Assembly (NCBI RefSeq): GCF_000213975.1
Contig: NZ_GL892076.1
Location: forward strand, 2,610,571 to 2,658,509
Direction: 5' to 3'
DNA length: 47,939 nt
From: Centipeda periodontii DSM 2778
GTDB lineage: Bacteria > Bacillota > Negativicutes > Selenomonadales > Selenomonadaceae
Shown in pieces: positions 18,737 through 33,913 of the stretch; within the stretch, counting starts at the first letter, position 1; each line of letters starts with the position of its first letter. The translations under genes and the position numbers were made by a program. The notes beneath the pieces were generated by a model that made no database searches, was not told where the DNA came from, and worked only from the letters and a program-made list of their open reading frames with translations.

Positions 18737-20197
18737 ATGCAAGTATCCTGGATTGTCATTGCGGTCGTTCTGGGTTACATGGCTATCATGCTCTTCATCG
18801 GCTGGTACTCAAAGAACCGCATCGAAAGCAACAGCGATTTCATGGTTGCGGGACGCAGGCTCGGTCCCATACTGATGGCCGGCACCCTCGCCGCAACAGA
18901 GATCGGCGGCGGCAGTTCACTGGGCGTCGTCCAACAGGGCATGGGTAACTACGGGCTTAGCTCGGCTTGGTACGTCATTGCAATGGGCTTTGCCTTCGTC
19001 ATCCTCACCTTCCTCGCGCCACGCTTCCGCGCCGCGATGGTCAAGACTGTACCCGAATATTTTCGCCGCCGCTACGGCAAGATTCCCGGTTTCATCACGG
19101 CCATCATCATGTTCCTGCCGCTCGTCGGTCTGACCGCCGGGCAAATGATCGCCTCTTCCGTCATTCTTTCGACGATGCTTGGCATCAGTTTCGACGCAGC
19201 GGTCATCGCAATTTGCTGCATCGTCACAATTTACTCGGTCATGGGCGGTCTCTGGAGTGTCACACTGACGGATTTTGTTCAGGTCTTCTTCATTGTCTTC
19301 GGTATGGCTGTCGCCATTCCCTATGCATTTGATCTGGCGGGCGGCTGGACAAATATCAAAGCGCATGTGCCGGCAGAGTCGCTCAGCCTTTTCTCCGGCT
19401 ACAGCGTTCTGGATGTCCTCTCGTTGACCATCATGTATATTGCGACCTTTACCGTTGGACAAGAAGCCGTCTCGCGCTACTATGCGGCACGTGACGGCAA
19501 GGCCGCACAGCAGGGTTCCATCCTCGCGGCCATTATCAATTTTGTCTACGGTTTCATCCCCGCCATCCTCGGTGTCACCGTCCTCGCACTCATTAACATG
19601 GGCATATTTGACCCTGCCCAGTTCGCGGATGTCGGCTCACGTTATGCACTGCCTGTTCTCGCTGTGAACGCAATGCCGCCACTCATCTGCGGTGTACTCT
19701 TCGCCGGAGTCATCTCGGCGACGATGAGCAGCGCGAGCTCGGATCTTCTGGGAGCGGGCTCCATTTTTGCCAACGACATTTACCGTGAGTACATCAACAG
19801 GAACGCAAGTGACATTACGGTTATGCGCGTTGCACGCATCGTTATGGTGCTCTCCGGGCTTCTCTCGCTTCTCATTGCCCTCTTCAACACGTCGAGTATC
19901 ATCACGATCCTCATGTTTTCGTTCACGCTGCGTGCTGCCGGCTCGTTCTTCCCCTATGTCATCGGACTTTACTGGAAGGGCGCATCCGAGGCCGGGACCC
20001 TCGCCTCGCTCGTCGTCGGCACCTTCGTCGTCGTCTACATTGAACACATCTCGCACGGCACGATCTTCGGGCTCCATGTTGGGCAGCCTATCCTGCCCGG
20101 TCTGATCGCGGCGCTTATCGCGTTCCTTGTCTTCTCGAAGCTCATACCGCCCAAAGAGTACACGACCGAGCTTACGCCGGACACGCACGAATCGTAA
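18737..20197 (+). CDS. Sodium:solute symporter (SSS family)
   Basis: This 486-residue integral membrane protein has about 13 hydrophobic helices. The first helix, an ERN/SNSDFMVAGRRLG-type loop and the GGGSSLGVVQQGM glycine-rich segment are typical of SSS proteins such as PutP and PanF. The ATG at 18737 has an AGGAGG site. Placement directly after arcC and before a second transporter suggests uptake of a cluster substrate, such as a ureide, purine or amino acid. The specificity cannot be read from sequence. Confidence 0.88.
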   Translation: MQVSWIVIAVVLGYMAIMLFIGWYSKNRIESNSDFMVAGRRLGPILMAGTLAATEIGGGSSLGVVQQGMGNYGLSSAWYVIAMGFAFVILTFLAPRFRAAMVKTVPEYFRRRYGKIPGFITAIIMFLPLVGLTAGQMIASSVILSTMLGISFDAAVIAICCIVTIYSVMGGLWSVTLTDFVQVFFIVFGMAVAIPYAFDLAGGWTNIKAHVPAESLSLFSGYSVLDVLSLTIMYIATFTVGQEAVSRYYAARDGKAAQQGSILAAIINFVYGFIPAILGVTVLALINMGIFDPAQFADVGSRYALPVLAVNAMPPLICGVLFAGVISATMSSASSDLLGAGSIFANDIYREYINRNASDITVMRVARIVMVLSGLLSLLIALFNTSSIITILMFSFTLRAAGSFFPYVIGLYWKGASEAGTLASLVVGTFVVVYIEHISHGTIFGLHVGQPILPGLIAALIAFLVFSKLIPPKEYTTELTPDTHES

Positions 20198-20240
20198 GAC
20201 TTTGTTCTTCGGCAGGAAAGGTTCTTTGATCGAAAAACGG

Positions 20241-20283
20241 AGGGGAAGTCGCCGTCTCCATACTGTATGGGGGCTTCCCTTTC
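20241..20283 (+). terminator. Terminator-like hairpin in leader of the NCS1 gene
   Basis: GGGGAAG...CTCCATA pairs with TATGGGGGC...TTCCC around a CTG loop and is followed by CTTTCCC. It lies between the two symporter genes. It resembles the hairpin at 23228-23268 in both outer arms and apical loop, so it may be an attenuator or processing site specific to this cluster. Confidence 0.55.
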
Positions 20284-20304
20284 CCATTGTTAGGAGGGAT
20301 AACT

Positions 20305-21774
20305 ATGCAGACGCAGTCAGAGTATCAAGTGGAGAAGGATGGCATTGTCAGCCTAACCGAGGCGGGCGTAAAGGCCATTGAGAACCACAAGAATTTCTAC
20401 AGCCCGGCGACCAGCCCCATACCGCGCGAGAAACGCGACTGGCACACAAAGGACATGGCAAACCTGTGGATCGGCATCATGGTGTCGATCGCGGTTTACC
20501 AGGTCGCGAGCGGTCTGTTGGTCGCAGGCATGACATGGTACCAAGCGCTCATCACGATTGTCCTCGGTCACACGTTGGTCATGGCGGTCGCGATGATCAT
20601 CGGTCACTATGGCGTGAAGTACGGCATGAACTATGCAATGCTGGGCAAGACCATCTTCGGGGAGAAAGGGCTTTTCATCCCCGCACTGATCCGCGGCATT
20701 CTTGGCGTCTTCTGGTTCGGCGTGCAGGCTTGGATCGGCGGACAGGCGGTGAACATCATCATCCAGACGATCGTCCCGAGCTGGGAGGGGCTCGGGTTCA
20801 CGGGCTTCTTCATCTCCTTCCTGATCTTCTGGGCGATCAATGTCTACATCGCGGCCTATGGCAACAAGGCGGTCAAGATCCTCGAGGGGGTTTCCGCACC
20901 TGCGCTGATCCTGATGAGTCTCATCGTCATCATCTGGGGGTTCAGCACTGCAGGCTGGAGCCTTGACGCACTCCTCAGCGCGCGGGTTCTCCAGCCGCAG
21001 GAAGGCATAGACTTCTGGACGCTCTTTTGGCCGGCACTCTCCGCTATGATCGCCTTTGACGGCGGCATTGCGCTCTCCATGCCGGACTTTACGCGCAGCT
21101 GCGTCAACCAACGGGCACAGATCCTCGGTCAGATCATCAGCGCACCGATCATGACGGGCTACATCGCCTTCGTTGGCATCTGCGGCACCGCCGGTGCATG
21201 GCTCGCATTCGGCAAAGAGATTTGGGAACCCGCCGTGCTCGTCGGCAATTTCGACAGCATTGCGATCCGCCTCATTTTCTCCATCTTCATCATCATGGCC
21301 ATCCTGACGACGAACGTCGCAGGCAACTTGATCCCGCCCGTGAACATCGTGGCATCCTACGTCAAGGGGCGCCTCAACTATCGTCAGGTGGCGATCCTCG
21401 TTGCAGTCCTCTCGCTCTTTGCACAGCCGTGGAACTCTCTCTCCAGTGCCTACCACCTGATCTTCGATGTGACGCAGTTCCTCGGCGCTCTGATCGGACC
21501 GATCTCGGGTATCTACATCGCAGCCTACCTCGTGGAGTACCGCACGGAGATCAGCATTGTTGACGCCTACATCGAGGGACAGGGAAAATATTTCCACACA
21601 AATGGCTGGAATGTGCGAGCTCTCCTCATCGTGGCCATCTTCACCGCGCTCATCTTCATGGGACGCTTTGTCCCTGTGCTTGAGCCTCTCTTCAACAACG
21701 CCTACGTCTTCGGCACGCTCGGCGCAGGTCTGACCTATGCGCTCATTGTAAAGCTGGGAGGCGCGTCCAAATGA
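20305..21774 (+). CDS. NCS1 family nucleobase/hydantoin:cation symporter
   Basis: This 489-residue, 12-helix transporter belongs to the NCS1 family (Mhp1, allantoin permease, CodB). The motif FWFGVQAWIGG matches the substrate-site Trp and Gln of Mhp1 (WFGLQ), and TTNVAGNLIPPVN matches the conserved Asn-containing helix 8. The ATG at 20305 follows TAGGAGGG. Its stop overlaps the start of the hydantoinase gene by four bases (ATGA), which couples them. The pairing strongly suggests import of a cyclic ureide (hydantoin, allantoin, dihydropyrimidine or purine-derived ring) for opening by that enzyme. Confidence 0.92.
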   Translation: MQTQSEYQVEKDGIVSLTEAGVKAIENHKNFYSPATSPIPREKRDWHTKDMANLWIGIMVSIAVYQVASGLLVAGMTWYQALITIVLGHTLVMAVAMIIGHYGVKYGMNYAMLGKTIFGEKGLFIPALIRGILGVFWFGVQAWIGGQAVNIIIQTIVPSWEGLGFTGFFISFLIFWAINVYIAAYGNKAVKILEGVSAPALILMSLIVIIWGFSTAGWSLDALLSARVLQPQEGIDFWTLFWPALSAMIAFDGGIALSMPDFTRSCVNQRAQILGQIISAPIMTGYIAFVGICGTAGAWLAFGKEIWEPAVLVGNFDSIAIRLIFSIFIIMAILTTNVAGNLIPPVNIVASYVKGRLNYRQVAILVAVLSLFAQPWNSLSSAYHLIFDVTQFLGALIGPISGIYIAAYLVEYRTEISIVDAYIEGQGKYFHTNGWNVRALLIVAIFTALIFMGRFVPVLEPLFNNAYVFGTLGAGLTYALIVKLGGASK

Positions 21775-23168
21775 GGACCGTCATCAAGGGAGGGCTCGTC
21801 TGTCTGCCGAGCGATCCCACGCATCTCGACATTGCCGTCGAGAATGGCGTCATCACAGAAATCGCCGAGAATCTAGATGTCGGAGACGATTTCCTCATCG
21901 ACGCCTGCGGCATGGTCGTCGTGCCGGGCGGCATTGACCCGCACACCCACATGGATCTCCAGCAATCCCCCAAGTACAGGGCATGCGATACCTTCCTCAC
22001 AGGCGGCATCGCGGCGGCCTGCGGCGGTACGACGACCATCATCGATCACATCGCGTTCGGTCCACCCGGCTGCACGCTTCGCCAACCACTCGATGTCTAT
22101 TGGGATCTCGCGAAGGATTGCCCGATTGACTACAGCTTCCACGGCGTGTTGCAGCATGTGGACATGGACATTCTCGACGAACTTGGGGAACTGATCGACG
22201 CGGGCTTCCCAAGCTTCAAGGCGTACACGACCTACGGCTTTCCACTGATGGAGGCAGGGCTTATGCCTGTTCTGCGCGTGATGCGAGAGCGCGCTGGACT
22301 CCTCACCGTCCATTGTGAAAGCGATGTGATCACGAACACCCTCCGCAGAGATCTGGGTGCAGGGGAGCAGGAACCCATCGAACATGCGCTGACGCGTCCC
22401 AACATCGCCGAGGCGATGAGCGTCAACATGCTGCTCTCCATCGCGCGGGCGGCAGGCGATGCACCTGCGTACATCGTCCATCTGTCGGCGCATGAGAGTC
22501 TCGATCAGCTGCGCCTCGCGCGGCAGGAGGGGCAGCGCAACGCCTACGCCGAGACCTGCACCCAGTACCTCACACTCACGGAGGACAAATTTCGGGGAAA
22601 TGCCGACGACGCCATCCAGTACATCATGGCGCCGCCGCTCCGCAAGGAGGAGGATCGCGCGGCGCTCTGGCAGGGGCTGCACGACGGCGACATCCAAGTC
22701 GTTGCCACCGACCACTGCCCCTTTATGCCCGACGAAAAACGCGCCTATGCCAAAGACTTCCGCGACTGCCCGGGCGGTGTGCCGGGCGTTGAGGAGCGCA
22801 TGCCGCTCATCTTCAGCGAAGGAGTGCTCGCAGGGCGCATCTCCCTCCCCGATTTTGTTCGCGTGACCAGCACGAATGCGGCGAAGATCTTCGGTCTTTA
22901 TCCCAAGAAGGGAACGCTCCTCCCCGGGAGTGACGCCGACATCGTCCTGATCGATCCACGGCGGGAGCATACCCTCACCGCAAGCGATCTTCACAGCACC
23001 TGCGGCTGGACCCCATATGAGGGCATGACCGTGCGCGCATCAATCGCCCTCACCATGCTGCGCGGCGAAGTCATCGCGCGGGAGGGTGCATTCCTCGGAC
23101 AGCGCGGCTATGGCCAGTTCCTCCAACGCAAGCGCAATGTCCCCTACGAAGACATTGTGCGGTGCTGA
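21771..23168 (+). CDS. hyuA: Dihydropyrimidinase/hydantoinase (HyuA/YgeZ type)
   Basis: This 465-residue cyclic amidohydrolase opens hydantoin-like or dihydropyrimidine-like rings. The metal motif DPHTHMD, the carboxylated lysine region PSFKAYTTYG, histidines in LTVHCES and VHLSAHES, and the catalytic aspartate in ATDHCPF are all in the expected order. It is translationally coupled to the NCS1 transporter gene. E. coli has the homologue hyuA (ygeZ) in the same kind of locus with ygeW, ygeX, ygeY and yqeA. The real ring substrate here is unknown. Confidence 0.93.
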   Translation: MRTVIKGGLVCLPSDPTHLDIAVENGVITEIAENLDVGDDFLIDACGMVVVPGGIDPHTHMDLQQSPKYRACDTFLTGGIAAACGGTTTIIDHIAFGPPGCTLRQPLDVYWDLAKDCPIDYSFHGVLQHVDMDILDELGELIDAGFPSFKAYTTYGFPLMEAGLMPVLRVMRERAGLLTVHCESDVITNTLRRDLGAGEQEPIEHALTRPNIAEAMSVNMLLSIARAAGDAPAYIVHLSAHESLDQLRLARQEGQRNAYAETCTQYLTLTEDKFRGNADDAIQYIMAPPLRKEEDRAALWQGLHDGDIQVVATDHCPFMPDEKRAYAKDFRDCPGGVPGVEERMPLIFSEGVLAGRISLPDFVRVTSTNAAKIFGLYPKKGTLLPGSDADIVLIDPRREHTLTASDLHSTCGWTPYEGMTVRASIALTMLRGEVIAREGAFLGQRGYGQFLQRKRNVPYEDIVRC

Positions 23169-23182
23169 TCGAAGAGAAACAC

Positions 23183-23212
23183 TTGCTTTTCCTGTGGGGA
23201 AAGTGATATGAT
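23183..23212 (+). promoter_or_regulatory. Promoter for the DauR-like regulator
   Basis: TTGCTT (23183-23188), an 18-bp spacer and TATGAT (23207-23212) lie just after the hydantoinase stop codon. Transcription would start a few bases before the hairpin at 23228-23268. Confidence 0.5.
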
Positions 23213-23227
23213 AGCAGAAAATGCACG

Positions 23228-23268
23228 AGGGAAGCCGCTTCCATGCTGCATGGGAGCGGCTTCCTTTT
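23228..23268 (+). terminator. Terminator or leader attenuator hairpin
   Basis: GGAAGCCGCTTCCATG pairs with CATGGGAGCGGCTTCC around a CTG loop and is followed by TTTTCTTTT. It can end the hydantoinase transcript, and because a promoter candidate lies upstream it could also attenuate the regulator gene. It resembles the hairpin at 20241-20283. Confidence 0.75.
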
Positions 23269-23299
23269 CTTTTGAGAACTGTGAAGGGGTTTTGATAGC

Positions 23300-23944
23300 A
23301 TGATGAACGGGCAACTCCTCGCCTGTCTGAAACAAATCGCCGGCGGCATTGCCCAGCAATTCGGTCCGAACTGCGAAGTCGTCGTGCATGATCTCTCCGA
23401 CGTGGAGCACTCCATCGTCGCCATCGAGAACGGTCATGTCTCCGGCCGCAAGGTCGGCGACGGGCCATCCATGGCCGTGCTCGACGCGCTCAGTGGTCAC
23501 CCCGAAAAGCTGCATACAGAAGGCAGCTACCTCACGAAGGGCAAGAACGGACGTGTGCTCAAATCGACGACCGTCTACCTGCGCGACACGAACGGAAAGA
23601 TCCTCGCCCTCTTCTGCATGAATTTCGACATCACGGAGCTTTCTCTCGCTGGCGGCGCACTCGCCCCCCTCATCTCCGTCATGTCACAGAAGGGCGAGGA
23701 TCGCAGTATCCCGCAGAACGTCGCGGAGCTCCTCGACGACTTGCTCGAGGATTCCGTGCGCCTTGTCGGAAAGCCCGTACCGCTGATGACGCGCGAGGAT
23801 AAAATGCGCGCTGTTCAATTCCTAAATGAGCGCGGTGCCCTGCTCATCACGAAATCCGGAGACAAGATTTCCAAATTTCTCGGGATCTCGAAGTACACAC
23901 TCTACAGCTATATTGGGGGAGCCTCGGACGAGCCGTCTGTGTGA
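23300..23944 (+). CDS. YheO/DauR-like transcriptional regulator (PAS-like plus HTH)
   Basis: This 214-residue protein has an N-terminal YheO PAS-like domain (about 8-115), recognised by CEVVVHDLSDVEHSIVAIEN and the block ALFCMNFDIT. The C-terminal helix-turn-helix contains FLGISKYTLYSYI. DauR, a relative, controls D-arginine catabolism in Pseudomonas, and members of the family are often found beside amino acid or diaminopropionate breakdown genes. It directly follows the dpaL-hyuA cluster in the same direction, so it is the best candidate regulator of the cluster. Confidence 0.88.
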   Translation: MMNGQLLACLKQIAGGIAQQFGPNCEVVVHDLSDVEHSIVAIENGHVSGRKVGDGPSMAVLDALSGHPEKLHTEGSYLTKGKNGRVLKSTTVYLRDTNGKILALFCMNFDITELSLAGGALAPLISVMSQKGEDRSIPQNVAELLDDLLEDSVRLVGKPVPLMTREDKMRAVQFLNERGALLITKSGDKISKFLGISKYTLYSYIGGASDEPSV

Positions 23945-23971
23945 TGTGCTGACGCAGCCCCCATATAAATC

Positions 23972-24023
23972 AACACGCCCGAATTTTTGTATCTGCTTGC
24001 AGCTACAAAAATTCGGGCGTGTT
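23972..24023. terminator. Perfect 20-bp hairpin between convergent genes
   Basis: Arms 23972-23991 and 24004-24023 are perfectly complementary (AACACGCCCGAATTTTTGTA on the left), and the loop can itself pair as CTGC/GCAG. It lies between the regulator gene and the IIA remnant, which converge, and is a bidirectional terminator. Confidence 0.85.
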
Positions 24024-24035
24024 GTTCTATGCTGT

Positions 24036-24261
24036 TTAGAGATCGTCGTCCTCGTCTGCCTCCATGATCGAGGCATGGAAGATCTGTGTGCCGTTCTTGC
24101 CCGCCTCCGCCGCCTGTTCCATCAGTGCGAGGATGTTGTATTCCCCGCCGATGAGCTGCGCGCTGACCATCTCGATGAGCATCGGGAGGTTCACGCCCGT
24201 AACGATGCCGTACTTCTCATTGTTCGCGGCGAGTCGGCACGCCGCATTGTACGCCAAACAT
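24036..24261 (-). pseudogene. Remnant of mannose-type PTS EIIA gene, internal deletion
   Basis: The last 70 or so residues (from YNAACRLAANNEKYG through VTGVNLPMLIEM to EADEDDDL) are the C-terminal half of a mannose-family EIIA. Directly upstream are AAAGGGG and an ATG at 24261 reading Met-Phe-Gly, the common EIIA start, but the next bases are already the Tyr-Asn-Ala part. About 65 codons, including the phosphorylated histidine, are missing and the frame is lost at 24252/24253. A fortuitous 80-codon frame starts at 24278, overlapping the upstream HAD stop by four bases. It cannot work as EIIA. Confidence 0.78.
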
Positions 24262-24274
24262 TTGTGTACCCCTT

Positions 24275-25081
24275 TCATTCCACCATATGAATCTTCTTCA
24301 GGAAGTGATAGATGCCGTCGGCATCGTTCGCCTCCGTCACGCTGTCTGCAATGTCCTTGATTTCATCAGGTGCATTGCCCATCGCAACGCTGTGCCCGAC
24401 ATAGCGCAGCATTTCGATATCGTTGTAATTGTCGCCGAAGGCAAGTGCCTCCGTGCGGTCAATCCCGTAGTGGGCGAGCAGGCGCTCGATCCCCGTCGCC
24501 TTCGACACTGTGCGCTCGATGATCTCGAGGAGATGGGGCAGCGAACGCATGACGGAGAGATTGGGAAATGCTGCCGCCAGTTCGCGCTCCATACACGCAA
24601 TGAGTTCCGGCTTTCCCATCACAAAGAGTTTGTTCGGCAGAATGTCGTCCGCGATCAGTGCGTCAAAGTCAGCCTCCACCGATGTGACCGTCGTGATCTC
24701 CTCTTCCCTGCGCACCTCCGGATCGGCTCGATCGCGCACGTACCACGTATGCCCTGCGTAGTAACTCATCGGTGCCTGCGGATATGCCCCCGAAATCCGA
24801 TGCAGAACTGCCTCCACATGCGTGCGCGTCATGCGCTCGTCATGAATCTCCGTCCCATCCGGCGTGATGACGAGTGCGCCGTTGTAGCTGATGACCGCAG
24901 CACGAACGCCAATTTCCTCGATGATGGGATAGATTGCCTCAGGCATACGTGCCGAAACAAGGGCAAACGGAATGCCCTTCTCTGCAATCTGCCGTATCGC
25001 CGCCGCCGTGCGCGGCAAGACGCGGTGATCGGTGGTGATGACCGTGCCGTCGATGTCGGATAAAACGATTTTATAGTCCAT
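24275..25081 (-). CDS. Cof-type HAD-superfamily phosphatase
   Basis: This 268-residue Cof/IIB HAD hydrolase appears intact. The nucleophile motif is VLSDIDGTVITTDHR, and the C-terminal motif is FGDNYNDIEMLRYVG. The ATG at 25081 follows GGGGAGG. It lies between an orphan sugar-binding protein gene and the EIIA remnant in a PTS locus, which suggests dephosphorylation of a sugar phosphate. It is only distantly similar to the HAD at 11412-12215. Confidence 0.87.
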   Translation of the reverse strand: MDYKIVLSDIDGTVITTDHRVLPRTAAAIRQIAEKGIPFALVSARMPEAIYPIIEEIGVRAAVISYNGALVITPDGTEIHDERMTRTHVEAVLHRISGAYPQAPMSYYAGHTWYVRDRADPEVRREEEITTVTSVEADFDALIADDILPNKLFVMGKPELIACMERELAAAFPNLSVMRSLPHLLEIIERTVSKATGIERLLAHYGIDRTEALAFGDNYNDIEMLRYVGHSVAMGNAPDEIKDIADSVTEANDADGIYHFLKKIHMVE

Positions 25082-25104
25082 AGTCCCTCCCCTATCTCTG
25101 TTGT

Positions 25105-25158
25105 GCACCTTCCACCATGCTGCGCATGGTCCCCCTCTCCCGCCTCGGCAGGGTTATG
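25105..25158. repeat. Extragenic hairpin repeat, short copy
   Basis: CACCTTCCACCATGCTGCGCATGGTCCCCC closely matches the start of the array at 41945 (CCTTCCACCACGCTTCGCGTGGTCC), including the CCATG/CATGG hairpin. It fills the gap between the binding protein gene and the HAD gene. Confidence 0.6.
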
Positions 25159-25165
25159 GTATTTT

Positions 25166-26395
25166 TCACTGCTGCAAAATCGCATTTACTTCCTTTTGCA
25201 GGCGGTTGAGCGCGTTGTGGAACGGCGGCGGCTCATTGATCAGCGCGTGAATGGCGCGATCGGCATAGAGCATAACCTCCGAGAGGCGGTCGAAGCGGTA
25301 CGGCGGGACAGCGTTCTGCATGGCAGTGCTCACATCCTCGACCGTCATGGCGCTCTCCCCCGAGTCCCAGAGGAAGATCTCCTCCGCCGCGCGCGATCGG
25401 AGAACATCACGGCGTGCAGGCAAGGCATGGGACTTTTCGAGCACCATGCCCTGTATTTCGGGATCGCCGCTGAGCATCTTCATAAACGACCACGCAAGCT
25501 CCTGTCGGCCGCTGCGCGCGCTCATCCCCACGAGCAGACTGTCCATCGTCGAGATGTTCCCACCCGAGGGACCTGCGGGCAGCGGAATGCAGTCCCACTC
25601 GAAGGAACTGTACTTCTTCACACGCCACGGATAGGGCTTGTAGGTACGATATTCGGCAAAGGTGAACGGACGGAACGCGACCCGCCCCATGTCGAAATCG
25701 CGTGCTGTGACCTTGTGTCCCTCGTTTGCCTCTTCGAGCTCCTTTAGAAAGCGCACGGTTTCCTCCATGCGCGGATCGGCAAAGTACGAGGATTTTCCGT
25801 CTTCTCGAAAGAGCCGGACGCCGTTGGACACCGCTGCCTGCTCCCATGTGTAGTCGTAGAAACCGAACTGATCGGGTATGCCATCTCCGTCCGTATCCTT
25901 CGTGAGACGCTGCGAGAGCGCGAGAAAGTCCGCCCACGTCCACGAGAGCGGCGGCATGTCTGCTCCCTCACGCGCGAGCAGCGTCTTGTTGACGAACATC
26001 AGCGTGATCATGTTCTCGCAGGGCAGCGCATAGAGGCGTCCGTCATGCTGCCCGTTCTGATAGGCGGCACGATCATAGATCTCCGTGGAGAACTCCGCGT
26101 CCTGCTCCACGAGCGGGGAAAGCTCTCGGAGTCCCCCTTTTTCCGCATAGAACTCGAAGTCCTCCGTCGGCAGGAGGAAGACATCGGGCTCCTCCCCACG
26201 CTGGAACTCTCCCGCAAGCCACTCCGCGTAATCCTCACGTTGAATGCCGCTTACATATTGGACGCGCACGCCCGGATGCGCCTCCTCGAATTTCTCGATC
26301 GTGCGGTCGATGATGGCGTAGGGCTCACCCTGCGGTACACCCCAGTTGCTGCCTGCAAAGATGCCGATCGTCAAGACGGGGCTGCTGCGCTGCAC
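25166..26395 (-). CDS. Orphan extracellular sugar-binding protein, 5'-truncated
   Basis: This ABC-type solute-binding protein (about 410 residues from the GTG at 26395) begins almost directly at the mature part (VLTIGIFAGSNWGVPQGEPY). In frame, only Leu-Val-Ala-Trp-Leu-Val of a signal or anchor helix remains before it at 26410-26396. Further upstream the sequence is response regulator. The fold blocks (IDRTIEKFEEAHPGVRV, DGDGIPDQFGFYDYTW) are typical of family 1 sugar-binding proteins. No permease or ATPase genes are nearby, so it was probably a sensory protein feeding the adjacent kinase, like LevQ/LevT. Without its N-terminus it should not be exported. Confidence 0.82.
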   Translation of the reverse strand: MQRSSPVLTIGIFAGSNWGVPQGEPYAIIDRTIEKFEEAHPGVRVQYVSGIQREDYAEWLAGEFQRGEEPDVFLLPTEDFEFYAEKGGLRELSPLVEQDAEFSTEIYDRAAYQNGQHDGRLYALPCENMITLMFVNKTLLAREGADMPPLSWTWADFLALSQRLTKDTDGDGIPDQFGFYDYTWEQAAVSNGVRLFREDGKSSYFADPRMEETVRFLKELEEANEGHKVTARDFDMGRVAFRPFTFAEYRTYKPYPWRVKKYSSFEWDCIPLPAGPSGGNISTMDSLLVGMSARSGRQELAWSFMKMLSGDPEIQGMVLEKSHALPARRDVLRSRAAEEIFLWDSGESAMTVEDVSTAMQNAVPPYRFDRLSEVMLYADRAIHALINEPPPFHNALNRLQKEVNAILQQ

Positions 26396-26580
26396 GAGCC
26401 ACGCGACGAGATGCGGATATCCATGAGGATGATATCGACAGACGTTTCCGCAATCTTCGCGAGCGCCTCACGTCCGTTGCGCGCCATCGCCGTGACCTTC
26501 ATGTCCTCGTTCATCTCGAGGACGATCTTGAGGCTCTCTCGGATGAGCTCCTGATCGTCGGCGATCATGACATTGATCAT
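26371..26580 (-). pseudogene. Truncated NarL-type response regulator
   Basis: Only the first 56 residues of a receiver domain are present: acidic pair in MIADDQE and the phosphoacceptor Asp54 in IILMDIR. After Arg56 the sequence changes to that of the binding protein gene in another frame, at about 26410/26411, and stops after 13 unrelated residues. The rest of the receiver domain and the whole LuxR-type DNA-binding domain are absent. Its ATG overlaps the kinase stop by four bases. It cannot bind DNA. Confidence 0.85.
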
Positions 26581-27809
26581 ACGCTCTCACCTCCCCCGCT
26601 GAGCGGTATCGTGACATCGACTGTGAATCCGTCCCCGCTCCGATACTTCGCTGTTCCGTGCAGGAGGTAGAGCCGCTCCTGCATGTGGCGCAGCCCGAAC
26701 CCCGGCGTCACCTCCGCGCAGCCGACGCCATCGTCCGCAATACAGATGCTGAGGATGCCGACATTCTCCCCGATCGTAATGCATACGTGCCTTGCCTGTC
26801 CGTGTCGGTGGGCATTCGTCAGGCTCTCCTGCAACACGCGGTAGATGACATCCTCCTGATCCTCGCGCAGGTCCGCCGGCCACTTCTGCACGTCGAGCGT
26901 GATCTCCATGCCCGACGCCTCCGCATAGTCGCTCGTCATCGCGGCGATCGCCTCCTGAAATGGCATCTTCTCCATCGCATCGGGCCGGAGCTTCTTCATC
27001 GAGCGGCGCACGTCCGTGATGCCCTTCTGTGCCGTGTCACGAATGCGCACGAGCTGCGTGCGCGTAAACTCCGGTGCACTCTCGAGCGTCACCATGCAGG
27101 CATCCAGCCCCGCAGTGATGCCTGTGAGCGCATGCCCGAGCGTATCGTGAATCTCGCGCGCAAGTCGGTTGCGCTCGCGTGTTTCTGCCATGCGTCCCGC
27201 GTGGATGGCATAGGCTCGAAGGCGCTGGTTTGCCTCTTCGAGTTTCTCGTTGAGCAGGCGAATGCGTTCCCGCTCTTCGTTCTTGTTCTTGATGAGCAGA
27301 ACGAGATAGGAGACGAAGAGGATCGTGTTCAGCGAGGAGCACGCGCTCCGCAGCGCAAGCAGGATGCTCTGCGTCTCGCTGTTATAGTAGGAAAGATAGG
27401 CCTCGAAGGGAATGACCTTCGTCTGATAGAGTCCGAGGTTGACATTCGCGATGAGATAGAGCATGACCATCGCGCTGATCAGAAGATAGGCGCGGTGATG
27501 TCCCTCGTACCTCTGCATCATATCCGCGACCACGAGCAGCACGACACCATCATAGGAGAAATTCAAACTCCGCATAAGCACCATACATGCCGCGATCTCG
27601 ATCGTCAGCAGGAGATAGAGGCGCACGCGCTGCTCTGTGGGACTCATGCGGTAGAGTCCGCCGAAAAGCGCGAGCAGGAGGAATGCAAGCGCCGTCTGAA
27701 AACAGATCTCCACCGGCGAGAGCGGCAGCGCATTCACCTGTTTCAGAAAGGCATACGCTCCCATCGACATGTGGATCTTGTGCTGCGTCAGGCAGAGAAA
27801 TGCGGTCAA
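26577..27809 (-). CDS. NarL-family sensor histidine kinase, start damaged
   Basis: The open frame encodes 410 residues from a TTG at 27809, and the frame stays open upstream with a natural-looking extension (EVHGLLYAYNALVVS) to about 27860. Six or so membrane helices fill the N-terminal half, followed by a coiled coil (NEERERIRLLNEKLEEANQ), the phospho-His box RLAREIHDTLGHALTG and an ATPase domain ending in GFGLRHMQERL. No ATG or ribosome binding site precedes the kinase frame, because the upstream sequence is truncated IID. The intact catalytic part predicts a kinase, but expression is doubtful. Confidence 0.82.
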   Translation of the reverse strand: MTAFLCLTQHKIHMSMGAYAFLKQVNALPLSPVEICFQTALAFLLLALFGGLYRMSPTEQRVRLYLLLTIEIAACMVLMRSLNFSYDGVVLLVVADMMQRYEGHHRAYLLISAMVMLYLIANVNLGLYQTKVIPFEAYLSYYNSETQSILLALRSACSSLNTILFVSYLVLLIKNKNEERERIRLLNEKLEEANQRLRAYAIHAGRMAETRERNRLAREIHDTLGHALTGITAGLDACMVTLESAPEFTRTQLVRIRDTAQKGITDVRRSMKKLRPDAMEKMPFQEAIAAMTSDYAEASGMEITLDVQKWPADLREDQEDVIYRVLQESLTNAHRHGQARHVCITIGENVGILSICIADDGVGCAEVTPGFGLRHMQERLYLLHGTAKYRSGDGFTVDVTIPLSGGGESV

Positions 27810-28444
27810 AACGGAAACAACGAGTGCGTTGTAGGCATAGAGCAGTCCGTGTACCTCTTCGCAACGAGCGCACCCATGACGAGAAGTCCGAACACGGACG
27901 AGCCCTCCGTGAGGTAGCGCATCTTGTTGCCGCCGATGTTGTCGACCAGCTCCGTGCCCTTCTCGTAGCCATAGTGTACGCCATACCAGTGCGTCAAGAG
28001 GCGCAGCGCGTTGAACGCGACGAAGAAGATGATCGGACCGATGATGCTGCCCGTGAGCGCTATCCCAGCGCCGAGTGCCGCAAGGACGGGGCGCAGCGTG
28101 CCCCAGAAGATCGGGTCGCCGACGCCCGCGAGAGGGCCGATGAGACCGACCTTGACGCCCGAGAGTGTCTGCGGGCTGATGTCCGCACCGTTCGCGCGCT
28201 TTTCCTCCATTGCGGCGATGATGCCCATGATCGACGCTGCCACGAACGGCTGCGTGTTGAAGAACTCGAGGTGACGCTTGAGCGCCGCCTTCAGCTCGTC
28301 GCCCTGATAGAGCTTCTTGAGCGCCGGCATCATTGCGACGCAGAAGCCCATTGCCTGCATACGCTCAAAGTTGAACGATCCGAGCAGGAAGTTGGAACGA
28401 ACGAAGATCCAGAAGAGGTCTCTCTTGTTCAATGTCTTTTCCAT
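27806..28444 (-). CDS. PTS mannose-family EIID subunit, C-terminally truncated
   Basis: Residues 1-191 follow the EIID family closely, from KRDLFWIFVRSNFLLGSFNF through GPLAGVGDPIFWGTLRP to GLLVMGALVAKR. The next bases belong to the kinase gene in another frame, adding 20 unrelated residues (DCSMPTTHSLFPF) before a stop. Normal EIID proteins are about 270-280 residues, so the last membrane helices are missing. The junction lies at about 27850-27862. Transport function is probably lost. Confidence 0.82.
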   Translation of the reverse strand: MEKTLNKRDLFWIFVRSNFLLGSFNFERMQAMGFCVAMMPALKKLYQGDELKAALKRHLEFFNTQPFVAASIMGIIAAMEEKRANGADISPQTLSGVKVGLIGPLAGVGDPIFWGTLRPVLAALGAGIALTGSIIGPIIFFVAFNALRLLTHWYGVHYGYEKGTELVDNIGGNKMRYLTEGSSVFGLLVMGALVAKRYTDCSMPTTHSLFPF

Positions 28445-28456
28445 CGTCCTGCCTCC

Positions 28457-29263
28457 TTACATCAGATCCGAATCATCAATATCATCGACGGGATTGCCCG
28501 TACCGGCACCCGCACCCGCTGCAGCGACCTGCGACTCACGCTCAATCCCCTTGATGTGGAAGTACGCGCAGAGAAGACCGACTGCGCCGAAGCCGATGAG
28601 GTTGAAATCCGTGAAGACGGCCATCAGGAAGCCGAGGAAGAAGTACGGCATGAGCGACTTTGCATTCATCATGTTGATGACCATCGCATAGCCGACGACG
28701 ACGATGAAGCCGCCCGCGACCTGCAGACCGCGCGTCACGACCTCGGGGATCGAGCTGAGCATGGCGCTGACCGTGTCCGTGCCCGCGATGAGCGCGACGA
28801 GCGCAGCGGGGACAGCGACGCGGATTGCCTGCAGCATAAGACCTGCGACGTGGCACATCTCGATGCCGAACATATTGCCATCCTCGGCAAATTTGTCCGC
28901 GAGATGCTGGAAGAAGACGGTGATCGTACGAACGAAGATCGTGAGCACCTGACCTGCCGCCGCAAGCGGAACGGCAAGCGCGATGCCCGCCGCGATGTCC
29001 TGATGTCCGACGATGACGAGGATCGTCGCGACCACCGACGCGAGCGCCGCATCCGGCGCCATCGCAGCGCCGACGTTCATCCAGCCGAGCGCCATGAGTT
29101 CGAGCGTACCGCCGAGGATGATGCCTGTCGTGATGTCGCCGAGCACGAGACCGACAAGCGTACAGGCGATCAGCGGACGATGAAACTGCGCCTCATCGAG
29201 TACGCTCGCCATGCCCGTAATCGCCGCGACGACGATGAGCATTACAAACTGTACGGTATCCAT
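28457..29263 (-). CDS. PTS mannose-family EIIC subunit
   Basis: This 268-residue membrane protein appears intact and forms the sugar channel of a mannose-class PTS together with IID. Characteristic blocks are GEI/GTLELMALGWMNVGAAMAPD, ASVVATILVIVGHQDIAAGI and the C-terminal FLGFLMAVFTDFNLIGFG. About 7-8 hydrophobic helices are present. It is 12 bp upstream of the truncated IID gene. An R1 repeat separates it from the IIB gene upstream. Confidence 0.9.
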   Translation of the reverse strand: MDTVQFVMLIVVAAITGMASVLDEAQFHRPLIACTLVGLVLGDITTGIILGGTLELMALGWMNVGAAMAPDAALASVVATILVIVGHQDIAAGIALAVPLAAAGQVLTIFVRTITVFFQHLADKFAEDGNMFGIEMCHVAGLMLQAIRVAVPAALVALIAGTDTVSAMLSSIPEVVTRGLQVAGGFIVVVGYAMVINMMNAKSLMPYFFLGFLMAVFTDFNLIGFGAVGLLCAYFHIKGIERESQVAAAGAGAGTGNPVDDIDDSDLM

Positions 29264-29282
29264 AAATCCAACCTCCCATTTC

Positions 29283-29451
29283 CTAGGGAATCGCTGATAA
29301 AATGAAGTCCGTCGAATTGGTACAGATTTTTTGTCCTGTCAAGAAGACAAACCGGACGCATAGCAAAAGCTATGTGGAGGATTTGTCAACAAAGACAGGG
29401 CGAAAAAGATGTGCTAAGACGGCGCGGCTGAATTTATCAGTGCTTCCCTAA
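29283..29451. repeat. R1 long palindromic repeat, copy C (about 169 bp)
   Basis: It starts CTAGGGAATCGCTGATAAAATG and ends TTTATCAGTGCTTCCCTAA. The central block CAAACCGGACGCATAGC, followed by AAAAGCTATGTGGAGGATTTG, is almost identical to copy A. It lies in the PTS operon between the IIB and IIC genes. Confidence 0.8.
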
Positions 29452-29495
29452 AGAGTACCCAATCCCCCCAATGGATTGGAGCCCTTCAAAGACCG

Positions 29496-29987
29496 TTATG
29501 CGAGCCCCTTTGCCTTGAGCGCCGCCATCACATCGCCCTTCGGCTCGTTCCAGAGCTTGCGGATCTCCACCTCGATCCCCATATCGAGGAGTTCCTTGAT
29601 CGCCTTGACATCTTCGTCGTTCACCGCGACCGCCTGCGAGATCATCGTGTCGCCGTCCTTGAAGCACTTGCCGCCGAGGTTGACGGACTTGAACGGGATG
29701 CCGCCCTTTACCGCGCGTACAACATCGGTCGGATTCGTGAAGAGAAACAGTGTTTTGAACGAATCGTACTTCGGATCCTTGTACGCAACAACAGCCTTGT
29801 CCACGGGAATGACGTATGCCTTGATGCCCGGCGGTGCAACCTGGATGAGCAGCTTCTTGCGCATCTCGTCCTGTGCCACGTCGTCATTGACGCACATGAT
29901 ACGGTTGCAGCCTGTCATCTTCGTCCAGACCGTCGCAACCTGTCCGTGAATCAGGCGGTCGTCAATACGGCAAAATGCGATCTCCAT
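29496..29987 (-). CDS. PTS mannose-family EIIB subunit
   Basis: This 163-residue cytoplasmic protein transfers phosphate to the incoming sugar. The phosphorylated histidine is His14 in RIDDRLIHGQV, and the blocks RIMCVNDDVAQDEMRK and GGIPFKSVNLGG are typical of the family. The start at 29987 has GGGGGA upstream. It is the first gene of the PTS operon and has a plausible promoter at 30035-30062. Confidence 0.9.
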   Translation of the reverse strand: MEIAFCRIDDRLIHGQVATVWTKMTGCNRIMCVNDDVAQDEMRKKLLIQVAPPGIKAYVIPVDKAVVAYKDPKYDSFKTLFLFTNPTDVVRAVKGGIPFKSVNLGGKCFKDGDTMISQAVAVNDEDVKAIKELLDMGIEVEIRKLWNEPKGDVMAALKAKGLA

Positions 29988-30034: not shown

Positions 30035-30062
30035 ATTGTATCAAAAAGAGAAATATTGTCAT
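30035..30062 (-). promoter_or_regulatory. Promoter for the PTS operon
   Basis: On the minus strand ATGACA (30057-30062), 16 bp, and TACAAT (30035-30040) precede the IIB gene. No sigma54-type -24/-12 (GG...GC) motif was noticed, unlike LevR-regulated PTS operons. Confidence 0.5.
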
Positions 30063-30092: not shown

Positions 30093-30112
30093 TTCATGAC
30101 AAATGTCATGAA
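30093..30112. promoter_or_regulatory. Candidate operator: TTCATGACA-N2-TGTCATGAA palindrome
   Basis: A perfect 9-bp inverted repeat with a 2-bp spacer lies about 30 bp upstream of the -35 element of the PTS promoter. The position suits an activator such as a NarL-type response regulator or a catabolite regulator. The binder is unknown. Confidence 0.5.
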
Positions 30113-30145: not shown

Positions 30146-30185
30146 GGGGCTGTTGCACGAAGTTTTAGCTTCGTGCAACAGCCCC
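30146..30185 (-). terminator. R2 hairpin, terminator of the penicillin-binding protein gene
   Basis: A 17-bp perfect stem GGGGCTGTTGCACGAAG/CTTCGTGCAACAGCCCC is followed on the minus strand by TTTTACTTTT. It is the same repeat core as at 4452-4503 and lies between the PTS promoter region and the end of the penicillin-binding protein gene. Confidence 0.8.
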
Positions 30186-30263: not shown

Positions 30264-32270
30264 CTACGATGGTGCGAAATAAACCTTGACATGCGTCCCC
30301 TGCTCAACGATGTCATTGACACCGAGGCTCTGCGAGACAGCGGCGCCCGTCCCCTCACTCTCGAAGAAAAGTCCGCGCTGCTCGGCAAGGCGTGCCGCCT
30401 CGCGCATGGAGAGTCCCGTGAAGTCCGGTACGAGAGCCTTGCCCTCGGGTGGTGTCGCGATCGCCTCCATGCGCTTTTCCTCCGCCCGCTTTTCTTCTGC
30501 AGGGCTGCTTTCTGACGGCTCATCCTCCTTCGTAAACGGATTGCTCGACGGCTCCACATGTGCATAGCGCAGGAGCTGAGCAAAGATGCGCGAGGCGACA
30601 GGTGCAGCGATCTGTCCGCCATAGAAGTTCCCGCCGCGCGGATCGTCAATCATGACGAGCACGGTGAAGATCGGATCCTCGACGGGCGCAAAACCGCAGA
30701 ACGAGGCGATGTAACGTCCCTCCATATAGCCCGACGTGTCAAGGCGAATTTTCTGCGCCGTTCCGGTCTTGCCTGCAATGCGGTAGCCGCGCACAGCAGC
30801 CTTGGAGCCGCCGCCCGTCGCGACGACCTGCTCGAGGAGTCCGATCAGGGTGCGATTCACCGTCTTCTGCAGAGTCTCGCGAACCTCCTGCGGTTTGCGT
30901 TCCTCATAGACCGAGCCGTCCGGATTTTTGATCTCGCGCACGATATGGGGGCGCATCAACATGCCGCCGTTTGCAATCGCGGACATCGCCGTCACAAGCT
31001 GCAAGGGGGTTACTGCGATGCTCTGCCCGATTGCGGTGGTCGCAATATCCGAGTCGCGCATATCCTCGGCCTTGAAGAGAATGCCCTCCTCCTCACCGGG
31101 CAGGTCGATGCCCGTCTGCGCACCGAAGCCGAAGAGGCGCGTATAGTGCATCATTTTTTCCGCACCGAGGGAAAGTCCAACCTGTGCAAAGCCCGTGTTG
31201 AGGGATTTCTTCACAATATCGGTAAAGGTGACGGCACCGTAGCTCTCGTTGCTCCAGTTCTGGATGCGCCGCCCCGAGACCATGACATACCCGGGGTCGA
31301 AGAAGACCTGATTCGGCGTGACGATTCCCTCCTGGAGTGCCGCGCCCGCAACGACTGCCTTGAACGTAGAGCCCGGCTCGTAGATAAAGGAAACGGCACG
31401 GTTCTTCCAATTCTCCCGCGAATACTCCCAGAAGCGGTTTGGATTGTAGGAGGGGCGCGATGCCATGGCGAGGATCTCGCCCGTCTTCGGATCCATGACA
31501 ATCGCCGTGATCGAGGCGGGATTGTTCTCCGCCATCGCGCGGTCGATCTCCTGCTCCACCATGAACTGAATCGTGCTGTCGATCGTCAGCACCGCCGTCT
31601 TGCAGTAGTCGCCGCGATACGTGCGCCGCCCGAAAAAGATGGAGTCTAGGATCGGGCGCCGCTGCCCGTCGACCGTCAGCCGCTCCTCACGCACCTCGCC
31701 CTTGAGCAGGGGATCGAGCGCCTGCTCCACCCCGTCGAGCCCCTCGTCGTCCGTGCCGACGAAACCGAGCACATTCGCCGCAAGGGCATCGTTCGGATAG
31801 TAGCGCTTTGCCTCGTTCTGAAACCCGAGGCAGTCGCTGTACCCCTTCTCGCGGATGACAGCGCGCACCGCCTCATATTCACTGTGCTCGAGGCGCCGCT
31901 TGACCCAAACGAAGCCGCCGCCGACGGCGATGTCATCGAGGATGTCCTGCTCCGTAAGACCGATGAGCGGTGCAATATCTGCGGCAATCGCAGCGGGATC
32001 ATGTGACTCGTAGACGTGGTTCGGGTCGATAAAGAGGGACTTCGTCATGCTGCTGACGGCGAGCTCCTTGCCGTTGCGGTCGAAGATCGCACCGCGCAGG
32101 GACTGGATGCGGAACTCGTAGCCACTCTGGTCGCGCATCCGCTGTGCGAGCGCATCGCCCTGAATAACCTGCAGATAGCCGTAGCGGAAGGTCAGTACAA
32201 CGAGAAGACCGAACATCAAAAGCGCGACGCGCGCAATGCGCCCCTGCACCATCGCCCGAACATTTTTCAT
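30264..32270 (-). CDS. Class B penicillin-binding protein (FtsI/SpoVD type) with one PASTA domain
   Basis: This 668-residue peptidoglycan transpeptidase is anchored by one N-terminal helix (IARVALLMFGLLVVLTF). The pedestal domain covers about 50-240. The catalytic motifs are EPGSTFKAVV (SxxK), KSLNTGF (SxN) and GKTGTAQK (KTG). A Glu/Lys-rich linker (about 570-600) leads to a single C-terminal PASTA domain (VPDFTGLSMREAARLAEQRG). I chose the ATG at 32270, after AAGGGGG; an ATG at 32309 is possible. No other division or cell wall genes are adjacent, which argues against the dcw-cluster ftsI and for a paralogue. Confidence 0.9.
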   Translation of the reverse strand: MKNVRAMVQGRIARVALLMFGLLVVLTFRYGYLQVIQGDALAQRMRDQSGYEFRIQSLRGAIFDRNGKELAVSSMTKSLFIDPNHVYESHDPAAIAADIAPLIGLTEQDILDDIAVGGGFVWVKRRLEHSEYEAVRAVIREKGYSDCLGFQNEAKRYYPNDALAANVLGFVGTDDEGLDGVEQALDPLLKGEVREERLTVDGQRRPILDSIFFGRRTYRGDYCKTAVLTIDSTIQFMVEQEIDRAMAENNPASITAIVMDPKTGEILAMASRPSYNPNRFWEYSRENWKNRAVSFIYEPGSTFKAVVAGAALQEGIVTPNQVFFDPGYVMVSGRRIQNWSNESYGAVTFTDIVKKSLNTGFAQVGLSLGAEKMMHYTRLFGFGAQTGIDLPGEEEGILFKAEDMRDSDIATTAIGQSIAVTPLQLVTAMSAIANGGMLMRPHIVREIKNPDGSVYEERKPQEVRETLQKTVNRTLIGLLEQVVATGGGSKAAVRGYRIAGKTGTAQKIRLDTSGYMEGRYIASFCGFAPVEDPIFTVLVMIDDPRGGNFYGGQIAAPVASRIFAQLLRYAHVEPSSNPFTKEDEPSESSPAEEKRAEEKRMEAIATPPEGKALVPDFTGLSMREAARLAEQRGLFFESEGTGAAVSQSLGVNDIVEQGTHVKVYFAPS

Positions 32271-32326
32271 TGATCCATGCCCCCCTTGCTCTGAACACTC
32301 TCGTGTCATCATACCATAAACGCGCA

Positions 32327-32376
32327 TGAAAAAAAAGCCGCCGCAATGCTCTGCATTGCAGCGACTTTTTTCATGC
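32327..32376 (-). terminator. Terminator of the formate dehydrogenase operon
   Basis: GCCGCCGCAATGC pairs with GCATTGCAGCGAC around TCT, extended by A6/T6 and CATGA/TCATG arms. It lies between the fdnI stop and the start of the penicillin-binding protein gene, so on the minus strand it ends the formate dehydrogenase transcript. Confidence 0.8.
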
Positions 32377-32387
32377 AATCGAGAAAA

Positions 32388-33083
32388 TCAATGATGATCT
32401 TCCTTCTCTGCCTGTTCGATCTCCTCACGTGTCACAACGCCCTGCGCGATAAGTTCGTTCACCCATGCGCCGTGGTGATGTGCAGCGTAGGACGCCTTGA
32501 TCGTGCCGTCCTTCATGCCGTGCAGAGAGTCGGGATTGACACCCGCTGCGAGGTAGATGTGCCCGAGTGCAGCGGCAAAGCAGACCGCCGCCCCGATGCT
32601 GTGCACGGGGATGGCAAGCGATGTGATCGTTGCCGGCAGGATGCTGTCACCCATCCAGAGGATGAGACCTGAGACGACGATGACGACCGACAGTGCAAGC
32701 TGCAGGGCGATGTTCATCTTCTCGCCGCCGTTGTAGAAACCCTGCGGCGGCATCTCGGGATCCTTGCCCATCAGCTCGAGGGGGAATTTCTGCATGAACT
32801 CCATGTCTCTCTTGCCGAAGCTGAAGATCTCCTTAATCATGACGATGTAGCCCTTGCGCGCGATGATGAAGCCGATGATCGGGGTCACGATGAACATGAC
32901 GCCAAAGATGCGGTGCGCATACATAAGTGTCTTGTCACCGAAGATATCATACAGGAATCGGAAGGTATCCGCATAGAGCGGCAGAGCCGTAAGAAAGAGC
33001 ATGAAGAACGCGAATGCGTTGAGCCAGTGGCACATAGCAAATGCCTTCTCATGGCGCGGCACATATTTCTTGTTGATCAGCAT
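32388..33083 (-). CDS. fdnI: Formate dehydrogenase cytochrome b556 (gamma) subunit
   Basis: This 231-residue membrane protein carries electrons from the FeS subunit to quinone. Heme-ligand histidines are visible in MCHWLNAF, MYAHRIFG, PVHSIGAAV and LGHIYLAAG. Four hydrophobic helices match FdnI/FdoI. The ATG at 33083 follows AAGGGG with good spacing; a GTG at 33092 overlaps the fdnH stop. It ends in a His-rich, acidic tail. Last gene of the operon. Confidence 0.9.
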   Translation of the reverse strand: MLINKKYVPRHEKAFAMCHWLNAFAFFMLFLTALPLYADTFRFLYDIFGDKTLMYAHRIFGVMFIVTPIIGFIIARKGYIVMIKEIFSFGKRDMEFMQKFPLELMGKDPEMPPQGFYNGGEKMNIALQLALSVVIVVSGLILWMGDSILPATITSLAIPVHSIGAAVCFAAALGHIYLAAGVNPDSLHGMKDGTIKASYAAHHHGAWVNELIAQGVVTREEIEQAEKEDHH

Positions 33084-33088
33084 TGTGC

Positions 33089-33913
33089 TCACCCCTTCCC
33101 CTGTTCTTTTTCCTGATCCTTGGCATTCGATCTCATCATCTTGCTGAGCACCATAGCGCCGACGATGCCGGCGGCAGCGCCGCCGATGGCGAGTTTCGTA
33201 AAGGTACGGCCTGCCTTCCAGAGGTCAATCGAGAGCGGCGTAACGGGGTTCGCCGGCAGACCGAACACCTCGGGCTTATCGGGCAGGACGTAGATCATAT
33301 GCGTACCGCCGACCCCCTCGGGGCAGTAGATGTTCGCGTTCGGGTGGTTCGGTTGGATCATCGCGAGACGCTCCGCCGCGAGCTGCTTCATCTCCTCGAT
33401 CGTGCCGAACTCAAGCGCGTGTGCCGTGCAGGTCTTGGAACACGAGGGCTGCATAATTTCGCCAGTCGTCTCGTAGCCATGCGCGATGCGGTCGTAGCAG
33501 AGATCGCATTTGTACGACTTATGGAGCACCTCGTCGATCTTTGGAATATGCCACGGGCAGTTGTGCTCGCAGTAGTGACAGCCGACGCATTTATCCTGAT
33601 TGATGACGACGGTGCCGTTCGGATTGCGATCAATAGCGTTCTCGGGACAGCCCTTCGCGCAGGCGGGATCGCCGCAGTGGAAGCAGTTCTTCTTGAAGAA
33701 GTCCCAGTGGAACTTCCCCTTGTCATCGACGCGCTCCTTCATTTCGATGAGCGTATAGACGCGTGAGCTGAGATCCCTGTGCGACTGGTACTGCCCTTCG
33801 AACGGCGTATCCATATCGGGCGGCAGATCGTGCCACTGTTTGCACGCCACCATACAGCCGCGGCATGCAGTGCAACGCGACATATCATGCAGCATTGCGA
33901 TTTCCTGTGTCAT
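33089..33913 (-). CDS. fdnH: Formate dehydrogenase iron-sulfur (beta) subunit
   Basis: This 274-residue ferredoxin-like protein has four 4Fe-4S cysteine groups: CTACRGCMVAC, CFHCGDPACAKGC, CVGCHYCEHNC and CDLC with a later CSKTC. A single C-terminal membrane helix (KLAIGGAAAGIVGAMVLS) anchors it as in FdnH. It links the catalytic subunit to the cytochrome. Slightly shorter than E. coli FdnH. It lies between fdhE and fdnI. Confidence 0.93.
   Translation of the reverse strand: MTQEIAMLHDMSRCTACRGCMVACKQWHDLPPDMDTPFEGQYQSHRDLSSRVYTLIEMKERVDDKGKFHWDFFKKNCFHCGDPACAKGCPENAIDRNPNGTVVINQDKCVGCHYCEHNCPWHIPKIDEVLHKSYKCDLCYDRIAHGYETTGEIMQPSCSKTCTAHALEFGTIEEMKQLAAERLAMIQPNHPNANIYCPEGVGGTHMIYVLPDKPEVFGLPANPVTPLSIDLWKAGRTFTKLAIGGAAAGIVGAMVLSKMMRSNAKDQEKEQGKG

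Follow-up and report, generated by a model that had tools for sequence, protein, structure and literature searches.

The closest described counterparts of the locus examined here are the LevQRST systems of Gram-positive bacteria. LevQRST has been described in Streptococcus mutans, and six further Gram-positive genomes are named as having similar operons (PMC3043104). According to this description, LevQ and LevT of S. mutans are required for sugar sensing, LevS (SMU.1965c) is the kinase, predicted to have up to 5 transmembrane (TM) segments, and LevR (SMU.1964c) is the regulator, shown in vitro to bind the promoters of fruA and levD (PMC3043104). The likely target of LevR in S. mutans is reported to be a dyad located at -72 to -59 of fruA (PMC9241797). 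With these systems in view, we examined a run of minus-strand genes at 24036-29987 of a 47,939-nucleotide stretch of Centipeda periodontii DSM 2778 (contig NZ_GL892076.1), the whole of which is referred to as the window. The run contains profile matches to PTSIIB_sorb, EII-Sor, EIID-AGA, HisKA_3/HATPase_c, Response_reg, SBP_bac_1, Hydrolase_3 and EIIA-man. It is very probably a LevQRST-like sensory phosphotransferase system (PTS) operon in a broken state; congeners have this operon intact.

A scan of 14 genomes of the genus with the kinase (E <= 1e-20) found it in only three, namely the window's own genome (G000), G011 (87% identity) and G002 (83%). A search for intact versions in related genomes had been proposed in the initial annotation, and both congeners indeed have the whole operon in a single run. 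Its order is IIB-IIC-IID-BP1-HK-RR-SBP-HAD-IIA, where the Roman numerals denote the PTS components, HK is the histidine kinase, RR the response regulator, SBP a MalE-type sugar-binding protein and HAD a phosphatase. BP1, an extra RbsB-type binding protein between IID and the kinase, has 320 aa (amino acids; by the start chosen), and the kinase has 440/441 aa. In G011, BP1 matches Peripla_BP_4, the regulator Response_reg plus GerE, and IIA is of full length. Alignment with G011 and G002 shows that five of the eight genes in the window are cut by three clean deletions. At the first junction (27857..27858), ~1.33-1.36 kb is gone: IID has lost its end and the kinase its start, and BP1 is missing entirely. 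The second (26410..26411) has removed ~0.56 kb, which held the remainder of the regulator gene and the first part of the SBP gene. At the third (24253..24254), 206 bp is gone, with IIA residues ~3-71, including the His of the GTHG motif that both congeners have kept.

The initial annotation had named eight genes on the minus strand. All are recognisable by profiles, but it had not noticed that IID, kinase, regulator, SBP and IIA are incomplete. The mannose-class EIID fragment (27858..28444; PF03613 2-202/265) has lost its C-terminal part, as the alignment also shows, and its reading frame runs on out of frame as far as 27806. The HisKA_3 sensor kinase (26577..27857; PF07730/PF02518), 83-87% identical to the intact congener kinases, has no normal start; its next in-frame start is a TTG at 27809, which by eye lies within the first TM-like segment. 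What is left of the response regulator (26411..26580; PF00072 1-53/111) is ~57 receiver residues without a DNA-binding domain, out of frame with the downstream sequence. The SBP (25166..26410; PF01547) is 82-84% identical to the intact congener proteins but retains almost nothing of its N-terminal membrane segment. The EIIA fragment (24036..24253; 80 aa; PF03610 72-103/116) is C-terminal, without the phospho-histidine, and does not share the frame of the IIA start codon at 24261. Whole genes remain for IIB, IIC and HAD, all likewise on the minus strand: the mannose-class EIIB (29496..29987; 163 aa; PF03830 1-147/148), the mannose-class EIIC (28457..29263; 268 aa; PF03609 2-232/233), with 98% identity in both congeners, and the Cof-type HAD phosphatase (24275..25081; 268 aa; PF08282 1-255/255; TIGR00099 above cut-off). 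Of the parts of a mannose-class PTS, the window thus has IIB and IIC in full, IID short and IIA without its His.

The run had been read earlier as a sensory PTS locus. With five of eight genes cut and BP1 lost, the copy in the window is not a working sensory PTS and should not be annotated as such. Because BP1, the DNA-binding domain of the regulator, the membrane segment of SBP and the active site of IIA have been lost, the copy should be silent; it would hardly be able to work, and neither signalling nor PTS transport is expected of it.

The remnants themselves look well kept. In the cut genes, the ratio of synonymous to nonsynonymous changes was 141:35 on the window branch versus 116:27 and 123:41 on the congener branches. 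In the whole genes IIB, IIC and HAD, it was 59:9 versus 66:24 and 58:19. These counts leave out codons that differ in all three genomes. Hence, the remnants give no sign of relaxed selection, and no stop or frameshift occurs except at the junctions, which is a point against a truly broken copy. We looked for relaxed selection as the mark of an old decay of the operon, did not find it, and rejected that explanation; damage that is very recent, or an error of the assembly, fits these data better than long decay. An organism with an intact operon, as in the congeners, and a faulty sequence is possible, though the less probable of the two views of this copy. Not only would it explain the unblemished remnants, but three sizeable deletions within 6 kb, at junctions where long repeats are not seen, are also what assembly or sequencing errors might leave behind. 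Conversely, the missing pieces are on no contig: none of the three stretches was found elsewhere in the own assembly, where the G011 query gave the operon in four pieces, and a BP1 search of the genome returned only a 31% relative. Moreover, the flank at 30300-47900 aligns to each congener in two long stretches of nearly equal lengths (11618 vs 11605 and 11624 vs 11639 bases; 5767 vs 5838 and 5781 vs 5823 bases), so that deletions or errors of such size are not general in the flank. The operon also lies at a synteny break, so the locus has been rearranged. Window positions ~4.2-12.3 kb match a distant part of G011, 12.5-24 kb has no DNA match in either congener apart from repeats and a single stretch of 374 bases at 66%, and the congeners' operon is placed across the mod genes, on the opposite side from that of the window.

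Alternatively, the shortened operon might still work in a reduced form, for instance with IIB, IIC and truncated IID relying on a different IIA and the binding protein being soluble. The intact IIB, IIC and HAD genes, the apparent constraint on the remnants and a retained operator (see below) would agree with this. Yet a regulator without a DNA-binding domain, the loss of BP1, an SBP without export segment and an IID short by about a quarter make it very improbable, and a broken copy of a once complete operon remains the better description.

The likeness to LevQRST/LevDEFG is therefore best judged from the intact relatives. As published, those systems consist of an HPK7 kinase and a NarL-type regulator flanked by two outside-exposed sugar-binding proteins (PMC3043104, PMC3353171, PMC9241797), with no ABC (ATP-binding cassette) transporter nearby and a fructose/mannose PTS adjacent. 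The intact relative has a membrane HisKA_3 kinase with five TM-like segments and a regulator with its DNA-binding domain (Response_reg plus GerE), and the relatives have both flanking binding proteins, with hydrophobic N-termini. In the window, the kinase is without normal start, the regulator's DNA-binding domain and BP1 are missing, and SBP is nearly without its membrane segment. A mannose-class PTS without ABC permease or ATPase genes stands next to the sensor genes in the window and both congeners; the nearest ABC genes in the window are a molybdate-type set ~15 kb off (neighbours by eye). The order BP1-HK-RR-SBP corresponds to the levTSRQ order of the literature, so that by position BP1 would be LevT and SBP would be LevQ. 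The initial annotation had stated that the gene order differs from that of LevQRST. This is correct for the placement of the PTS genes and the phosphatase, but not for the sensor genes. In most Selenomonadaceae loci fetched, and unlike LevQRST, the PTS genes come before the block and IIA may be last. Further differences are the HAD phosphatase in the operon, the diderm host and the broken state of the window copy. The added phosphatase is real: the gene is intact in the window, and HAD lies directly 3' of SBP on the same strand, with a gap of <=125 bp, in 8/42 and 9/80 loci of the two surveys described next, and is thus a recurrent member of these operons. A literature search, partly judged from titles, found no description of a LevQRST-like system in this lineage. 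The system is of a known kind in a lineage without a description found, to which we add the deletion analysis, the breadth of the sensor cassette and a predicted operator.

How widespread is this block? In the class, the kinase was found in 91 of 380 genomes and 22 of 102 genera (E <= 1e-45). Forty kinase neighbourhoods, chosen for spread and long contigs, were mapped together with the two congeners. Contiguous BP1-HK-RR-SBP was present in 35 of these 42 loci, one was cut by a contig end, three had the order HK-RR-SBP-BP1 and three lacked the block. The three loci with BP1 last continue, by eye, with RbsA-like and RbsC-like genes and, in L083, a PfkB-type gene. In a second survey, named genomes were scanned with BP1, and the best 80 of 166 relatives were mapped by BLASTP against a reference set; a few loci occur in both sets. 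Across the 42 loci and the best 80 of 166, the block accompanies a PTS in Erysipelotrichaceae/Coprobacillaceae, Lachnospiraceae, Butyricicoccaceae, Oscillospiraceae and Selenomonadaceae, and a ribose-type ABC transporter in Spirochaetes, some Clostridia and two other families of the class (f8 and f28). These data show that sensor cassettes of this kind are common in Selenomonadaceae and also occur in several further groups. Loci of family code f1, that of the window, were assigned to Selenomonadaceae on the basis of the duplicate pair L097 and L136 and of named rows in shared clades of the kinase tree. Eighteen of the best 80 loci, including Synergistes and Fretibacterium, have BP1-RbsA(-RbsC) only, with no kinase in view, and no Streptococcus occurs among these 80. 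Selenomonadaceae and Spirochaetes are both diderm, and the diderm host, which the initial annotation had listed as a difference, is not exceptional.

Several loci in these surveys are noteworthy in their own right. On plasmid pNP243 of Butyrivibrio fibrisolvens (L082, 6691-9903), a long gene annotated as fructose PTS EIIC resembles BP1 at its C-terminal end (32%); judged by this match, it joins a PTS permease and a sugar-binding protein in one chain. In L087 (G118), the binding-protein block is missing, and a related kinase-regulator pair stands next to GH32 sucrose hydrolase-like and sucrose PTS-like genes (by eye). In a plasmid collection searched for LevQRST from named lactobacilli, the matches listed for BP1, kinase and SBP were mostly generic ABC binding proteins or kinases, 32 Ligilactobacillus records were counted beyond the 15 matches listed, and the membrane part of the kinase had no match in this collection.

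The occurrence of the block beside ABC genes bears on whether the kinase, regulator and binding protein of the window are pieces of an ABC locus that came to lie beside a PTS by chance, which the initial annotation had named as the finding that would speak against it. Such loci do exist: f8, f28, some Clostridia and Spirochaetes have a homologous block next to RbsA/RbsC. The window kinase, in contrast, falls within a PTS-only set of 13 rows in the kinase tree (SH-aLRT, the Shimodaira-Hasegawa-like approximate likelihood ratio test, 99), where it groups with L016 and L017 (SH-aLRT 99), and the PTS and ABC labels require two changes on this tree. The tree comprises 98 rows, 14 of them with no transporter in range, and leaves out 4 presumed duplicate loci (identical maps) and 21 loci lacking a kinase open reading frame of 380 aa; it is a quick search with SH-aLRT support only, in which several long branches and odd compositions were flagged. 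ABC adjacency therefore holds for other clades and not for that of the window. The sensor genes are also linked to a PTS in both congeners, and the box described below precedes the PTS operon, which makes a chance junction extremely improbable. Judged from these neighbourhoods, the LevQRST-like arrangement is conserved. For the ancestral locus, the proposed LevQRST-like gene set was well chosen: the congeners and many Selenomonadaceae keep kinase, regulator and binding proteins beside a mannose-class PTS.

Upstream of the operon, a perfect 14-bp palindrome, ATGACATTTGTCAT (30096..30109, minus strand), ends 109 bp 5' of the IIB start. It is conserved before transporter operons and likely represents the operator of the response regulator, of the form ATGACA-N2-TGTCAT; a conserved 14-bp palindrome upstream of the transporter operon is newly reported here. 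We scanned 300 bp 5' of the first transporter gene in 119 loci (42 plus 80, less the 3 without the block). After removal of 20 loci without a transporter in range, 2 with a short upstream region and 2 duplicates, 95 were scored; near-copies remain in these counts, and the window itself is not counted. Where kinase and regulator are present, the box occurs with <=1 mismatch in 59/75 upstream regions: 51/65 PTS loci (63/65 with <=2 mismatches) and 8/10 ABC loci (9/10 with <=2). It occurs in 1/2 PTS loci without kinase and regulator in view (<=1 mismatch), and in 0/18 ABC operons without them (<=2 mismatches). As a control, upstream regions of internal genes contained it in 2/455 (<=1 mismatch) and 13/455 (<=2) cases, and among 120 permuted arrangements of the half-sites, the best other reached 3/75 versus 59/75 for the box. 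In L069, the PTS lies kilobases from the sensor genes and the operator is still found before the PTS. In 20/72 sites, TGACA, a candidate second half-site, follows 33 bp past the start of the dyad. The only exact ATGACANNTGTCAT match in the 2.76-Mb genome is the site in the window. Before IIB, G011 and G002 each have a copy with 1 mismatch; one exact site is present in G002 at another place. A second site in G011 was rejected as chance, since by eye it lies inside a hexokinase-like coding sequence. Likewise, a wider regulon found no support: two sites were inspected, an exact one in G002 and a 1-mismatch one in G000, and neither had a link to sugar genes. The predicted operator makes regulation of the cassette directly testable.

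A promoter-like site (ATGACA-16-TACAAT, 30035..30062, minus strand) comes from a consensus scan only, which gave 2 sites in the region versus 2.9 expected in shuffles. Given this site, the box in the window would lie ~68-81 bp before the start point.

BP1 genes 5' of the kinase encode a lipobox-like motif in 6/87 and a hydrophobic N-terminus in 82/87 cases, compared with 8/27 and 27/27 for transport-type BP1 genes 5' of RbsA; for SBP, the counts are 21/93 and 91/93. These numbers lean towards TM-anchored sensors, although an anchor and a signal peptide would look alike in them. In L142 and L164, two paired BP1 copies were observed, one after HK-RR-SBP and the other before RbsA/RbsC, which looks like a split into a sensor version and a transport version.

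In its intact form, the operon might then work as follows. BP1 (RbsB type) and SBP (MalE type), anchored in the membrane, would sense sugar outside the cytoplasm and signal to the 5-TM HisKA_3 kinase, which would phosphorylate the NarL/LuxR-type regulator. The regulator would bind ATGACA-N2-TGTCAT 5' of IIB and turn on its own operon, comprising IIA/B/C/D, the sensor genes and the HAD phosphatase, in a positive loop. The sequences themselves show which genes are present, that relatives have them intact, that the assembly has the deletions and that the box is conserved. We infer the ligand class, the order of signalling, the membrane anchoring, the binding to the box and the loss of function in the window copy, and by analogy the Lev logic of S. 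mutans is presumed to carry over to the intact operon.

The ribose-type ABC operons with kinase and regulator (L083-L085, L131, L142, L164, L168, L171 and others) have a homologous block in the order HK-RR-SBP-BP1, and in L131, L142, L164, L168 and L171 the box precedes the transporter with <=1 mismatch (L083-L085 were unscored). They differ in that the transporter is of the ABC type and BP1 before RbsA more often has a lipobox-like motif. Taken with the PTS loci, they suggest that BP1, kinase, regulator and SBP probably form a portable extracellular sugar-sensing cassette with a fixed operator. In evolution, ribose-type ABC transporters and no fewer than two kinds of mannose-class PTS would have acquired this cassette, in phyla both monoderm and diderm, and the operator would stand before whichever transporter is controlled. 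Several observations weigh against the main reading, a broken LevQRST-like operon with the mechanism outlined above. Homology to S. mutans LevQRST is suggested by domains, gene order and the published description. A hydrophobic N-terminus does not tell whether a protein is anchored, since all 27 transport-type BP1 proteins have one and 21/93 SBP proteins are lipobox-like. Related loci in the operator counts are not independent, and the box is missing at <=2 mismatches from the PTS loci L071 and L174 and from the ABC-type locus L113. Furthermore, a DesR motif has the form of the box, so that this form does not single out the regulator proposed here. DesR also belongs to the NarL family; the DesKR system governs the desaturation of membrane lipids and includes no sugar-binding proteins. 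The motif reported for DesR of Bacillus subtilis and a pneumococcal RR11 candidate, ATGACA-N2-TGTCAT (PMC11034029), has a palindrome form identical to that of the box, which here precedes sugar transporters.

The operon in the window is bordered by hairpins. On its 5' side, a strong terminator-like hairpin (30146..30185, minus strand) has a 17-pair stem followed by a T run, and on its 3' side, an inverted repeat around AACACGCCCGAATTTTTGTA (23972..24023) was read from the sequence and is absent from the terminator scan list. No RNA families were found at the locus at gathering thresholds.

Between IIB and IIC lies a repeat of ~165 bp (29286..29450) resembling a miniature inverted-repeat transposable element, recognised by repeat search and congener alignments, with 41 matches in its own genome, 83-100% identical (170 candidates, 40 scored). 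An inverted-repeat search of its ends at length 12 found none. G011 has this repeat at the same place (one continuous alignment; 233-bp gap between the genes), while G002 lacks it (177-column alignment gap). Since it is shared with G011, the repeat is older than the damage and provides no evidence for it. Further short dispersed repeats, each present many times in the congeners, occur in the window at 18558-18710, 12324-12514 and 41946-42064.

The region at 12500-24000, which has no long DNA match in the congeners, contains carbamate-kinase-like, permease and dihydropyrimidinase-like genes (by eye) and a YheO-type regulator (by profile). Perhaps it is an island for purine/pyrimidine use beside the broken operon.

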